Part shown: positions 4,348 through 38,814 of the stretch, in pieces | Position numbering within the stretch: the stretch's first letter is position 1 | Layout: every line of letters begins with the position of its first letter | Source of the DNA: Caldilineaceae bacterium | GTDB taxonomy: Bacteria > Chloroflexota > Anaerolineae > Caldilineales > Caldilineaceae | Assembly: GCA_020433455.1 (NCBI GenBank) | Contig: JAGRCP010000029.1 | Coordinates: 1 to 56,439, forward strand | Direction: 5' to 3' | DNA: 56,439 bases | Program-made: the position numbers and the translations under genes | Notes under the pieces: model-generated | Database searches by the model: none | What the model saw: only the letters and a program-made list of their open reading frames with translations | Told to the model about the DNA's origin: nothing

Positions 4348-5724
4348 TTATTCTAACTGTAAACGGTATCCCCGCCCGCGTACCGTAACCAGAAAGCGGG
4401 GATTGCCCGAATCCGCTTCGATCTTCTGGCGCAGGCGGCTGACGAGCTTCTCAATGCGCGCATCGTCAACTTCATCGATGTAGCTTTCGCCCCACACGTT
4501 GCTGACGATTTCATACTTGTCCACAATCTTGCCCGTACTTTGGAAGAGAAGGAGCATGAGCTTATATTCCAGATTGGTCAGCGTCTCCGTTTCCATACCG
4601 CCCACATAGACCTCGCCGCTGTCTACGTCTACCCAGAGCGCGCCGCCATCGACCAGCGGTTGCAGCGCCAGCCGTTGGATGTAATCGCTGAGCAGGCGGC
4701 TGAATAGCTGGTAGCGACCCTCGATGGGTAGAAGCAGGTGGCTGCGAACAAGTCGTTCAAGTCCGGCCGGGGCAGGAGGTTCAACGCCGGTAAAGAGGTT
4801 GCGCAGTTCTTCCTGCTCTTCCTCGCTGAGTTGACGCCAGATTTTCCGACACTCCGCTTGCAGGATAGGGTTTTCATGCAGTTGCCGCGCCGTATCCCGG
4901 TAAAGTTTTTGACGCATGGTGACGTCCCCCAATCCCTGACCGGAAGCAGCAACGGCCGCGTCCAATATGCGGCAGACGCCTTCCATCATCGTCGGGTGGC
5001 CGCCGCCCCATTCACAGATAAAATCAAAATCCGCGGCAATAAAATCAGCTTCGTAAGCATTCGCATAGCGTCGGATAAGCCGTTCCGAGTCGCTGCGCGT
5101 CAGGGGCGCGAGATGCCACGTGCGGTGGCGGAAGAGTTCGCTGAATTCGCTCCGCTGCTCGTCTTGACGAATGACGTTTTGTGCTTTAGCGGTCGCGGTC
5201 AGATAGACCAGCTTGTCGGGATAACGATCCCTCAACGCGCGCAGATTGAGAAAGACACGCGGGTCAATCTGGGCAAAGGGTTCATCAAATTCGTCAAAGA
5301 GAAAAATCAGGCGTTGGGTTGTACCGGTGAGCGCGGCGGTAAGCCCCCGGTTAAAGCTCAGGGGGATTTGGAATTCCGTGGCCGGATGAATCAGCGCACT
5401 GTACGCTTTGTCCAGTTCGGGCAGGGCGGCCACTCGGTCGCTGCTCTCTTGCAGACAGCGCAGGACCAATTCATAAAAGCCCTGATCCGTCATGCCGAGC
5501 ATGCGGTTACAATCGATGTAGACGGGCAGGAATTCCTGCGCGGCTTCGCCCAATTCCTGGATCCAGACGTCCGTTTGGGCCAGGAGGCGCATAAACCCGG
5601 ATTTTCCGATATTGCTGAAGCCGACAATTTCTACGCACTGCAAGCCATAGATGTAGCGGATGACGCTTTGGATGTCGGTGCGGCGCATGTAGCTGCCGTC
5701 AGGCAGGCGCAAGGTTTTCGGCAT
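4348..5724 (-). CDS. P-loop (STAND/AAA-like) ATPase fused to OmpR-type winged helix
   Basis: A 458-aa putative signal-responsive transcription regulator. Walker A is GFSNIGKS at residues 35-42 and Walker B is LIFLFDEFD at 139-147. A helical region follows, and the C-terminal ~95 residues form an OmpR/PhoB-type winged helix. That part contains LTNLEYKLMLLL, the recognition-helix region DDARIEKLVSRLRQKI, and the terminal wing VRGRGYRLQLE. No receiver domain is present, so the ATPase presumably does the sensing. The start at 5724 (MPKTLRLPDG) has GGAAGAAG upstream; an in-frame ATG at 5832 would add 36 low-complexity residues. It is transcribed divergently from the ileS leader. Its target genes are unknown. 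Confidence 0.75.
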   Translation of the reverse strand: MPKTLRLPDGSYMRRTDIQSVIRYIYGLQCVEIVGFSNIGKSGFMRLLAQTDVWIQELGEAAQEFLPVYIDCNRMLGMTDQGFYELVLRCLQESSDRVAALPELDKAYSALIHPATEFQIPLSFNRGLTAALTGTTQRLIFLFDEFDEPFAQIDPRVFLNLRALRDRYPDKLVYLTATAKAQNVIRQDEQRSEFSELFRHRTWHLAPLTRSDSERLIRRYANAYEADFIAADFDFICEWGGGHPTMMEGVCRILDAAVAASGQGLGDVTMRQKLYRDTARQLHENPILQAECRKIWRQLSEEEQEELRNLFTGVEPPAPAGLERLVRSHLLLPIEGRYQLFSRLLSDYIQRLALQPLVDGGALWVDVDSGEVYVGGMETETLTNLEYKLMLLLFQSTGKIVDKYEIVSNVWGESYIDEVDDARIEKLVSRLRQKIEADSGNPRFLVTVRGRGYRLQLE

Positions 5725-5869
5725 GGCAATCTTCTTCCGGTAGCGGATTTCCCGTTTTTGAGATGCTGCTTTGTATCTATACGGGGGCCTCCGGAAAAAC
5801 CTCCCGGAGGCTGTACCGTAATGCTGTTTCAAATATTGTAACGAAAAGCGTTCTCACGCGCTATTTTTG

Positions 5870-32391: not shown

Positions 32392-34749
32392 ATGTTACTA
32401 CGCCGGCTCTCTGCCTTTCTCATTCTAGTTCTGCTGCTCAGCACCCTCTTGCCGGTCGTTGCCGTCGCCCAGACCATTCCGGACTCTGCCGGCCCCTTTT
32501 CTCTGGATGACGTTCCCGACGCGCTGCGCGTCAGCGATGGAACTTACTACAAGCCGGGGGAAGTGCTGGTCGCGCTCAGGGATGAGGCAGCCTTGTCCCG
32601 CCAGGTGCAGCGCGGGTTGGACATCATCGCAGCCGAAGCGTTGGACGTGCGCGGCGTCGAGCATCTGCTCGGCGAGCAGGCGGGCTCTACGGCTGTCACC
32701 GGCCGCACGTTGACAGTTCCCGCGGGCGAGGAGTGGGCGGTCATCGTGACCCTGCGCCAGGATCCCGGCGTCCTCTTTGCTCAGCCCAACTGGGTCATCA
32801 GCGCGGCCCAGGATGCTGTACCCGAAACGCCCTATTCCGTTAACGATCCCCTCTACCGCGGCGAGCAGTGGTATCTCCAACGCATTCAGGCCGCGCGTGC
32901 GTGGCCTGTGGTTGACGCCCACGCTCAAAATGATGAGCGGGTACGCGTCGCGGTGATTGACAGCGGCGTGGATGGCTCCCACCCGGATTTCGGCGGACGG
33001 GTGGCGGAGATCACCTCCTACGTGCGTGACGCACAGGGCAACCTGATCCGGGTCGATGATTTTGGCCACGGCACCCACATTGCAAGCCTGATCGGCGCGA
33101 CGCGTAACAATGAGCGGGGCATTGCCGGCGTGGCTCCCGGGGTGCGCATCGATCCGTACAAAGTGCTGAACTGGCAGGGCAACGGCTACATTTCCGATGC
33201 GGCCGCGGCCATTCGTGCGGCAGCGGATAAGAAAGCCGATATCATTAACATGAGCTTCTCCATCAAGGCCAGCGTCATTGACGGCAACCCGTCTCTGGAC
33301 AATCTTCTCCATAGCGCGATTTATTATGCGGCGGACAAGGATGCGCTGCTCATTGCTGCATCGGGCAATTTTGCCAGCGAGCCCGTGACGTTTCCCGCCG
33401 CCTATCCCGAAGTGATGACTGTGGCCGCGACAGATTACCAGAATGAACGCGCCGGCTACAGCGCACAGGGCAGTGCGGTCGAATTGGCCGCGCCCGGCGG
33501 TACGAATACGCAGCCCATGGCCGGAGCCTGGCCTGTGGGCCTGCCCTGCCCGTCCACGGTAGGCGGCCTGAGCGGCTATTGCAACAAGTACGGCACCAGT
33601 TTCTCTACCGGCCTGGTCAGCGGCGCCGCCGCCCTGTTGTTGAATATGGACCCCTCGCTTACCGCGGCTGAATTGCGTGCGCTCCTCATTGAATCGGCTG
33701 CGCCGCTTAACGGCACGTCTGCTGAAGTGGGAGCCGGCCTGCTGAACTTGCCGGGCGCGGTGCGCAGCCTCTTGCCGGCCGGGGCCGCGATTGCCGGCGG
33801 CAGTGTGGGCCTCTCGACCGCGCCCCGCAGCGCGCCCATGACCCACACGCTCCTGATCCGCAATGAGAGCAGCGAGCCCGCTACCTGGACCCTGTCGCGC
33901 CCGGCCGACGCGCCCTGGCTCGTCTTCAGCGACTATCCCAACCAAACCCGCACCATCAACGGAACCAGCGCATATGATCATGATGGCCTGGTCACCTTGC
34001 TGGCTTCGCCCGGCGCGCTGGAGCCGGGCGTCTACAGCGCCCGTCTGACCCTTACCGTGTCGGATGAGGACAATCAACCGGAAGTGTCCTATTTTGACGT
34101 CAAAATGGCGCTGCTGGCGGTGAGCCAAACCCGCTATCTTCCTTTTGTCGCGGCAATCGGATCGCCTGAGAATGTCTCCAGGCCCCTCTACCCCGCCTGG
34201 GAAACGCCCAACGCCGCCGGCCGCACCGTGCTGGACCTGAGCGCGGGTCAGTCCGTTTCCTTGCCGCTGCCTTTCTCATTCCCGCTGGGCGGACGGAATT
34301 ATACTGACCTGCGCGTCCATGCTGATGGTTATCTCACCTTTCCGGCTGCGGAGGTGCGGAGCGTCTCTGCGCCGAGCTGCCTGCCCGCCGTTGATTGGCC
34401 CAACCAGGCCGTCTACGGCTGGTGGGCGAGATTAAATCCGGGTGCGGAAGGGGCCCGGATCAGCGCCTTCCGCACGGTAGACGGCAGCTACGTCGTCGAG
34501 TTTGACGGGGTTCCGTCCCTGGCCGCGACCGCTTCCGGCGTCGCGACCTTCCAGATGGTGCTGCATGGGTCCGGTGCGGTCAGCCTCAACTACCGGGCTC
34601 TGCCCGGGTCCATGCAGGCCACTACAGGCGTGGAGGCCCTGGACGGGCGGCTTTTTAACCTGGTCCATTGTCAGGACAGTAGTCGCCGACAGGGCTTGCC
34701 GCCCGTGGCCGGACAATCTCTCTACATTTCTACCCAAGGAGTCTACTAA
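32392..34749 (+). CDS. Secreted subtilisin-like serine protease (S8)
   Basis: A 785-aa exported protease. The signal peptide is about residues 1-27 (VVAVAQ). An I9-like propeptide region spans about 50-138. The catalytic triad is Asp190 ([14 protein letters not shown]), His226 ([13 protein letters not shown]) and Ser403 ([18 protein letters not shown]), with ASGNF supplying the oxyanion Asn. After the catalytic domain comes an Ig-like segment ending [12 protein letters not shown] (about 580), then a further beta-rich domain to the C-terminus. It overlaps moaB by one base, so the two may be cotranscribed despite unrelated functions. Confidence 0.93.
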
Positions 34750-35255
34750 TGCCCGCCGATGATCATCGCGCCCTGGCGGCGGAAAAAGGCGAAATTCGCT
34801 TGGCCATCGTCACGGTAAGCGACACGCGCACGCCGGAAACAGACAAGAGCGGCCAACTGATCCGCGCCCTGACTGAAGGCGCAGGCCATCGGGTGGCGGA
34901 TTACCGCATCGTCAAGGATGAGCCGGATCAGGTGCGGCAGGCGCTGGATGACTTTGCTGCTGGGGCGGCTCAGGTTATCGTTTTCAACGGCGGAACGGGC
35001 ATTAGCAAGCGGGACCGCACCTACGACGTGATTAGCCGGGCGCTGGAGAAGACGCTGCCCGGCTTCGGCGAGATATTTCGCATGTTGAGTTATGAGGAGA
35101 TCGGGGCCGCGGCCATGCTCAGCCGGGCCACGGCCGGCGTCTACCGGGAAACCGTGGTGGTCAGCGTTCCCGGCTCATCCAACGCCGTGGGATTGGCCAT
35201 GGAGAAGCTCATTTTGCCCGAAATTCAGCACCTGGCCTGGGAAATGACGCGCTAG
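34749..35255 (+). CDS. moaB: MoaB/MogA-type molybdopterin adenylyltransferase family protein
   Basis: A 168-aa protein of the MoaB/MogA fold, which activates molybdopterin with ATP before metal insertion. [17 protein letters not shown] opens the domain (19-35). The nucleotide loop [16 protein letters not shown] is at 79-94. [16 protein letters not shown] and [12 protein letters not shown] are typical. AAGGAG lies seven bases before the ATG, within the end of the subtilase gene. No other cofactor genes are in view, so MoaB versus Mog cannot be decided here. Confidence 0.9.
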
Positions 35256-36272: not shown

Positions 36273-37394
36273 TTACGCCTCTGCCGTCACCTCGATTCCC
36301 TCAATTCCCGCCACAACCTCGCCGATCGGCCATGCCGCCTGCCCGTGTTCGCCGCAGGCGGCGATGAAGCGTTCTACATTGGCTGCGGGCACGGCAATCA
36401 GCAGGCCGCCGCTGGTTTCCGCTTCCCAAAGCAAGGTGCGCTGTTCGGGCGTTACGTCCGGCTCAAAGCGAACCTGTTTGCCGAAGCTGGCCGGATTGCG
36501 TTCGCTGCCCCGGGTCAGGTAGCCGCCCTGAATGTAATCAAAAGCGCCGGGTAACACAGGCACAGCACCGGCAAAAATGCGCAGGCCCACGCCGGTCTCC
36601 CGGCCTGCGGCAAGCGCCATCTCGCTGCCGTGACCCAGCAGCCCAAAGCCGGTAATATCGGTTGCGGACCGGACGTCCGCGGCCTGGGCCGCCTGGGCCG
36701 CGCAGCGGTTCAAGTGCAACATGGAAATAACGGCCGCATCCAGATCGGACTTGCGCAACCTGGGCTTGCCCCGGCGCAGGCGCCATTGACGGCCCAGCGC
36801 GCCCGCGCCGGGACCGACCAGCTTGGCCGCCGTGGTAATCACGCCCGTTCCCAGGGGCTTGGTCAGGAAGAGGGCATCGCCCGCGCGGGCGCCGCCCTTG
36901 CGCATGACGTTATCGGGATGAACCATCCCGGTTACGCTCAGACCATAGAATGGTTCGGGACTGTTTACCGTGTGGCCGCCGGCAATTGCGGCGCCGGCCT
37001 GCTTGACCTTGTAGGCCCCGCCGGTAAAGACCTGGGTGATGCTCTCGGCGCCCATCCGGGCAGGAAAGCCGGCGACATTGAGGCAGAAGAGCACTTCGCC
37101 GCCCATGGCGTAGACGTCGCTCATGGCGTTGGCGGCCGCGATCGCGCCCCACGTCCAGGGATCATCCACGATGGGCGTAAAGAAATCCGTCGTCGTGATC
37201 AGGGCGCGCGTCTCGTCCAGCCGGTAGACAGCCGCGTCATCCGGCTCGCCCAGTCCCACCATCACCTGTTCATATTCAGTTGCCGGAAAGAATCCGGCTA
37301 AATGTCGCACGACCTGCGACAGCGTCTCCGGCGGGAGCTTAGAGGCTCAACCGGCGCATTCGACCATAGCGGTCAGGGGTTTTTCATTGTTCAT
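36273..37394 (-). CDS. selD: Selenide, water dikinase (SelD), likely selenocysteine-containing
   Basis: It makes selenophosphate from selenide and ATP for selenocysteine and selenouridine synthesis. The start at 37394 gives 373 aa if the in-frame TGA at 37347-37349 is read as selenocysteine. The N-terminus then reads ECAGUASKLPPETL, with Sec16 and Lys19 exactly where E. coli SelD has catalytic Cys17 and Lys20 (AGCGCK). Downstream blocks are typical: DDAAVY, TTDFFTPIVDDP, ANAMSDVYAMGG, AGGHTVNSPEP, TDITGFGLLGH, TSGGLLIAV. Starting after the TGA (GTG at 37310) would remove both catalytic residues. An AGGAA lies ten bases before the ATG. Confidence 0.9.
37321..37339 (-). promoter_or_regulatory. 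SECIS-like hairpin after the selD UGA
   Basis: Starting about ten bases after the UGA, CTCC and GGAG can pair around a CGCC loop. AGC/GCT can extend the stem with a bulge. Distance and size suit a bacterial SECIS element, but such hairpins are poorly conserved, so this is only a candidate. Confidence 0.3.
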
Positions 37395-37457
37395 AGTTGC
37401 ATCGTTCCTGCTTGTATTGAGTGTGAAGGATTACCATATGGACATTGACCTTACTGA

Positions 37458-37559: not shown

Positions 37560-38240
37560 TCACCATACCGAGCCGAACGTAAAGCCCTGAATATATTCGC
37601 TTTCTTCAAAGGCGAGAAGCGCGACGCGCTCGGTTAGCTCATCCGCACCGTAGACGGCCGTTTGTTGATCCATCATCTCCCGGTAGCGGTCGGACTGCAT
37701 GATTTTCCCGTCCGGCAGTGCAATGCGCACCAGCATCAGATCGGTCAGGCGTTGAGGCTCCAGGGCTTCCATCAAAGCGGCAATCTCAGCTTCTTCCAGG
37801 CGCAGCACCGCAACCCCGGGATCGATGATGTCCAAACCAATCAGCAGGCCATAGTGAAGCCGCTTAACATCGTACATGGCCTCAGCAACCAATGCCGCGC
37901 GATTCATCTCGACGTAGAGGGGGTGGCGGGGCGGAAGCAGCGCGCCCGGACCAATCGAGAGGTAAGGCGTAATCGAGCCGCCCAGGCGGGCCGCGGCGGC
38001 ATCAAAAGCGTAGCCAACGCTAAGCTCATCGGTGCTGCGCAGCGCGAGGATTGCTTGGGCGTCGCTTGCCGCAAGGGCGGAGACGTAGGCTGTAAGCGCC
38101 TCCTCGGGCGTGGCATGGACTGCGGTTTCCATGACCGTCCCTGACTCCGGTGACACCAGCAACAGCCTGTTCGGATCCAGGCAGGCGCTCAGAAAGAGTA
38201 ATGCGCCCAGCAGCAACAGAACACGCGGTATACGTATCAT
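37560..38240 (-). CDS. Putative lipoprotein of unknown function
   Basis: A 226-aa exported protein. The signal peptide ends in a lipobox (FLSAC), so it is probably anchored at the membrane by a lipidated cysteine near residue 20. The mature part is mixed alpha/beta and begins with a helical segment (TPEEALTAYVSALAASDAQAI), which recalls NTF2/DUF4878-like lipoproteins; that is only a suggestion. ATG at 38240 follows AAGGGG by five bases. An ATG at 38351 would include translated repeat sequence. It is preceded by a GC-rich intergenic repeat. Confidence 0.7.
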   Translation of the reverse strand: MIRIPRVLLLLGALLFLSACLDPNRLLLVSPESGTVMETAVHATPEEALTAYVSALAASDAQAILALRSTDELSVGYAFDAAAARLGGSITPYLSIGPGALLPPRHPLYVEMNRAALVAEAMYDVKRLHYGLLIGLDIIDPGVAVLRLEEAEIAALMEALEPQRLTDLMLVRIALPDGKIMQSDRYREMMDQQTAVYGADELTERVALLAFEESEYIQGFTFGSVW

Positions 38241-38306
38241 CTTCACCCCTTGCTTAACTTGGTAAATATCCATTTCAAGTTGGCGGTATGCTGTTTCAGC
38301 CGTCCC

Positions 38307-38330
38307 GGGAGCGCCGGACTCCAGTCCGGC
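38307..38330. repeat. Copy of the GGGAGCGCC / inverted GCCGGACT repeat
   Basis: These 24 bases are identical to 9772-9795 and contain the palindrome GCCGGACTCCAGTCCGGC. Here only one arm of the larger cruciform is present. It lies between the Nudix and lipoprotein genes. Confidence 0.75.
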
Positions 38331-38340
38331 AATGCGGCCT

Positions 38341-38814
38341 TTATTCCTCATGCTCTTCTTCTAACCCCCGACTCACCAGCACCTCCGGCGGATAGACTGG
38401 CCGGCCGGCAGCTAATTCCGCCAGTAACTCGGGAATACGCGCACTGCGATGATGCAGTTGGGTCAGTTCATCCAGCTTGAACCAGGCGGCGCGCAGCGTA
38501 TGCTCATCGGGCGTTGATTTGGGCGGCGTATCATCCAGCGGTAACGCCAGGAAGAGAACCTGTATGCGCATGATATCCGGTGCGTACACCTGCTGACGCA
38601 CTTCGATAATCCCTTCCAGACGGATGGCGATGCCGGCTTCTTCCATCGTTTCCCGGTGGGCTGCCGCAATCAAACTCTCGCCCGGTTCCACCATCCCCGC
38701 GGGCAGGAACCACGGATTATCTGCCAAATTCTCCTGCACCAGCAGAAATTCATCCGCCCGGCGCACCACTACCCAGACGAAAAAATAGCTAGGAATGGGA
38801 TCGCGCGCAAACAT
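38341..38814 (-). CDS. Nudix hydrolase
   Basis: A 157-aa protein that hydrolyses a nucleoside diphosphate linked to another moiety; the substrate is unknown. The Nudix box is complete, from Gly40 to Ile62 (GMVEPGE..., RETMEEAGI), with the metal-binding REXXEE glutamates at 55, 58 and 59. The N-terminal strand FFVWVVVRRADEFLLVQE is typical. It ends in an acidic tail (EEEHEE). It is the second gene of a minus-strand run after the GNAT gene. Confidence 0.92.
   Translation of the reverse strand: MFARDPIPSYFFVWVVVRRADEFLLVQENLADNPWFLPAGMVEPGESLIAAAHRETMEEAGIAIRLEGIIEVRQQVYAPDIMRIQVLFLALPLDDTPPKSTPDEHTLRAAWFKLDELTQLHHRSARIPELLAELAAGRPVYPPEVLVSRGLEEEHEE

Follow-up and report, generated by a model that had tools for sequence, protein, structure and literature searches.

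The selD gene of the Caldilineaceae bacterium, found on the minus strand of the window (the whole analysed stretch of DNA, 56,439 nucleotides), is almost certainly of the selenocysteine (Sec) type. Its in-frame UGA would be decoded as Sec by means of a SECIS hairpin at 37303–37321, SelB and tRNA-Sec(UCA), with translation from ATG 37394. The preliminary description of this DNA had noted a TGA at the position of the catalytic Cys17 of E. coli SelD, with the essential Lys retained three residues further on; both the coordinates and the peptide proved to be exactly as it gave them. The present analysis adds the location of the SECIS hairpin and a conserved CxxU motif (Cys13-x-x-Sec16).

The selD frame and the catalytic loop

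The selD frame begins with ATG 37394–37392, contains TGA at 37349–37347 and is then open up to the stop ending at 36273. This TGA is the only one inside the frame. The peptide read at the N-terminus is MNNEKPLTAMVECAG-U-ASKLPPETL. The product passes the cut-offs of the SelD family, with 336.7 bits against 125 for TIGR00476 and 317.4 bits against 299 for PRK00943. The eukaryotic name of the enzyme is SPS2 or SEPHS2. The features of the gene and of its catalytic loop are as follows.

36273..37394, minus strand: selD coding sequence (selenide, water dikinase), from ATG 37394 to the stop, with one in-frame UGA
37406..37409, minus strand: AGGA, a possible ribosome-binding site 11 nt 5' of ATG 37394, read from the sequence
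37308..37310, minus strand: GTG, the start chosen by mechanical ORF calling, overlapping the SECIS hairpin; highly improbable as the genuine start
37356..37358, minus strand: codon of Cys13, forming CxxU with Sec16; Cys in 33/33 same-family SelD genes
37347..37349, minus strand: in-frame TGA, residue 16, the predicted Sec codon, aligned with Cys17 of E. coli SelD
37338..37340, minus strand: Lys19 codon AAG, equivalent to the essential Lys20 of E. coli; invariant in the SelD alignment A1

The best PDB match is selenide, water dikinase 3u0o, the E. coli enzyme of the same family. The catalytic loop is aligned without gaps, AGC17-GC-K20 of 3u0o corresponding to AG-U16-AS-K19 of the window protein. 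The two proteins differ in that E. coli SelD has Cys17 and Cys19, whereas the window protein has Sec16 and Ser18, and an extra Cys13.

The latter residue, the first one in the Cys13-A-G-Sec16 motif, is conserved in all 33 same-family genes, in 11 of 20 genes at the class level, and in 35 of the 64 UGA-type SelD genes from named genomes. In marine metagenomes, CxxU was observed in about 5.6% of single-domain Sec-SelDs (PMC2398784), as opposed to every same-family gene here. One may speculate that the family-wide motif marks a redox-regulated or Cys-assisted SelD, in which a Cys13–Sec16 selenenylsulfide would protect or switch the enzyme, but we consider this rather unlikely.

Two neighbouring genes may be mentioned. 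About 1 kb past the end of selD, at 34749–35255 on the plus strand of the window, there is a MoCF_biosynth (MoaB/MogA-like) gene. Formate dehydrogenase needs a cofactor of this type, and the proximity to selD may or may not mean something. Upstream of selD, at 37560–38351 on the minus strand, a predicted lipoprotein-like ORF of 263 residues has no Pfam match.

Selenocysteine genes in the genome and its relatives

The source genome is a draft of 5.25 Mb in 172 contigs, 99.0% complete, with an estimated contamination of 3.9%. The suggestion of the preliminary description that the organism decodes Sec is supported by the complete set of genes that it had proposed to look for. The genome contains one selA (540 bits), one true copy of selB above the cut-off (307 bits) and one tRNA-Sec above the cut-off (72 bits), its anticodon UCA confirmed by ARAGORN. 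SelB features the SelB-wing_2 and SelB-wing_3 domains; in E. coli, it is the last winged helix of SelB that binds SECIS. The selA, selB, selC and selD genes reside on four different contigs of the draft. No second selD was found in this genome. A search of the genome for ybbB, encoding tRNA 2-selenouridine synthase, yielded nothing above the cut-off, and hence selenouridine is an unlikely reason for the retention of SelD here.

The gene encoding the alpha subunit of formate dehydrogenase, FdhA (L075, G000:C108:106345-108345), also has one in-frame TGA. It is situated at the Sec site, NIDNCSRA-U-HAPTVAGL, and is followed, 18 nt after the UGA, by a hairpin with the GGUCU loop. Together with selD, this brings the predicted selenoprotein genes of the organism to two or more.

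SelD matches, some of them weak, are present in 56 of 61 genomes, the source genome and its relatives taken together. In the alignment of the N-termini, TGA occupies the identical column, that of Cys17, in 53 sequences, among them the window gene itself and the second gene of a tandem pair in G037, so its placement is not fortuitous. Only two sequences have a Cys codon there, TGC in G010 and TGT in a divergent second copy in G002. It is the in-frame UGA, and not an intact gene of the Cys type, that close relatives maintain; neither of the two situations that the preliminary description had named as contradicting its reading was observed. The LTxxVxCAG residues preceding the UGA are conserved across the relatives as well.

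The set of SelD genes from named genomes shows the same pattern. These relatives were recovered by an alignment query, a single-sequence query having yielded none, and come mostly from Chloroflexi/Anaerolineae metagenome assemblies, plus Clostridia, Photobacterium and others. TGA stands at this site in 64 of the 79 readable genes, and a Cys codon in the other 15. The nearest named relative of the window SelD, 71% identical to it, belongs to a Chloroflexi assembly, and on the basis of SelD the window would most probably be assigned to the Chloroflexota.

The selA gene is found above the cut-off in 53 of the 61 genomes, and nearly all relatives with Sec-SelD have it. Partial selA matches are seen in G026 and G038. 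The genomes with UGA-type selD and no selA match, G003 and G040, are only 85% and 70% complete, respectively.

Several relatives have an atypical selD content. G037 contains a tandem selD pair (L059, G037:C278:12000-14257) with an in-frame UGA in both genes, the second of which reaches the contig end. In G002, a UGA-type selD coexists with a divergent Cys-type one of 35% identity (L030 and L067). The same-family genome G010 has selA, and its only selD is of the Cys type (L066, G010:C86, 46% identity); this is either a change from Sec to Cys or replacement by a foreign gene. Finally, in G012, G048, G058 and G060 selA is above the cut-off, while SelD is absent or represented only by weak or fragmentary matches, which may be due to assembly gaps.

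The hairpin downstream of the UGA

Two hairpins are located after the UGA.

37303..37321, minus strand: bacterial SECIS hairpin UGUCGCA-GGUCG-UGCGACA, loop at 37310–37314, beginning 32 nt past the UGA; folding energy −9.5 kcal/mol
37326..37337, minus strand: minor hairpin CUCC-CGCC-GGAG, nearer to the UGA, with 60% of cells paired in a fixed register

Conserved pairing after the UGA, which the preliminary description had proposed to seek in related genomes, is observed at 37303–37321. Among some 5,400–5,800 combinations of position and loop size scanned along selD, this is the best-paired hairpin, with 99% of cells paired in the family set and 94% in the class set, and the pairing breaks down once either strand of the stem is shifted against the other. 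None of 200 shuffles folds as well. In 29 same-family genes, the excess of synonymous identity peaks at codons +3 to +15 past the UGA, where it is 0.35 against the gene mean of 0.10 (sd 0.07). The stem features compensatory changes: TCG at codon +10 goes with CGA or CGG at codon +14, and GCG goes with CGC or CGT, while the stems GGCACA/UGUGCC and GACUCA/UGAGUC are seen in more distant genomes. Of 109 distinct UGA-type sequences, 79 form all six core pairs, whereas none of the 17 sequences of the Cys type does. Phylogeny confounds this contrast in part, and so does the protein sequence, since the amino acids encoded in this stretch are frequently different in Cys-type genes.

The SECIS of E. 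coli fdhF has the AGGUCU loop about 18 nt after the UGA. The selD hairpin resembles it, as well as the hairpin of the organism's own fdhA, in the small GC-rich stem and GGUC in the loop. However, the selD loop, lying 32 nt past the UGA, is 14 nt further out than that of fdhA. The bacterial SECIS model allows for a loop of 3–9 nt, a stem of 4–16 bp, G in the first two loop positions, a distance of 16–37 nt from the UGA and a minimum free energy not exceeding −7.5 (PMC13188914). The selD hairpin satisfies all these constraints, having a 5-nt loop GGUCG and a 7-bp stem at the distance and energy listed above.

The minor hairpin was also considered as the SECIS and rejected: it is paired in register in only 60% of cells, and its loop, about 13 nt from the UGA, is too close for the model. 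When the 45 nt after the UGA were folded as a whole, the energy was no better than that of shuffles, and hence the single-sequence energy of that stretch was given no weight. Scanning the window against Rfam produced no match.

Alternative readings and implications

The TGA could be a normal termination codon, or else a TGC or TGT rendered wrongly by an error of sequencing or assembly, selD then being a pseudogene or a Cys-type gene. Indeed, a single base separates TGA from the Cys codons, and Cys-type SelD does occur in the relatives, namely in G010 and in the second copy of G002. However, the TGA is shared by the 53 SelD genes, nearly all of them from other, independently assembled genomes, so the error version is already refuted; besides, the remaining frame is intact and well conserved, and the hairpin is restricted to the UGA-type genes. 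This possibility is thus extremely improbable. Hardly better are the chances of a start at GTG 37310, from which a truncated SelD-like product lacking the catalytic loop would be made. The mechanical ORF caller does select this codon, truncating the gene just as had been anticipated for automatic annotation. But such a start removes residues 1–28, and with them Sec16 and the invariant Lys19, the loss that had been foreseen for any start after the TGA; moreover, the LTxxVxCAG residues are conserved though they would be untranslated, and the GTG overlaps the constrained hairpin.

It is likewise very doubtful that the UGA is read through as a standard amino acid, e.g. Trp, by a code change or suppression. 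There is a precedent in the insect SPS1-UGA genes, where UGA is read through without Sec (PMC4561486). In the window gene, however, the codon occupies the position of the catalytic Cys or Sec and is the only TGA inside the frame. A SECIS-like hairpin is situated downstream, the genome contains the full Sec machinery, and the Sec site of FdhA is organised in the same way.

Under decoding of the UGA as Sec, and by analogy with the established biology of E. coli, translation would begin at ATG 37394, and the hairpin would hold SelB with GTP and Sec-tRNA-Sec(UCA) near the ribosome at UGA 37349–37347, so that Sec would be inserted in place of termination. Sec16, which shares the flexible loop near the N-terminus with Lys19, would then take part in the synthesis of selenophosphate from selenide and ATP. 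SelA would use the selenophosphate to form Sec-tRNA-Sec, and SelD would thus help to make the very amino acid that it contains.

Sec-containing SelD was among the two commonest selenoprotein families already in 2006 (PMC1794560) and is the second most widespread prokaryotic one (PMC13188914). Sec-SelDs have been surveyed (PMC1794560; PMC4561486), the SECIS of bacterial selD has been computed previously (PMC4561486), and three Chloroflexi selenoproteins were counted earlier (PMC1794560). The window gene agrees with known bacterial Sec-SelDs in the family, the catalytic position, Lys three residues on, the UGA, the downstream SECIS and the accompanying SelA, SelB and tRNA-Sec. It is an ordinary instance of a known and common arrangement, and leaves the knowledge of selenium use unchanged. 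At the same time, it sets right how selD is annotated in a family of the Chloroflexota whose genes mechanical ORF calling would shorten, provides a clean comparative set for the selD SECIS, with UGA-type genes having the hairpin and Cys-type ones lacking it, and indicates that this lineage decodes Sec.
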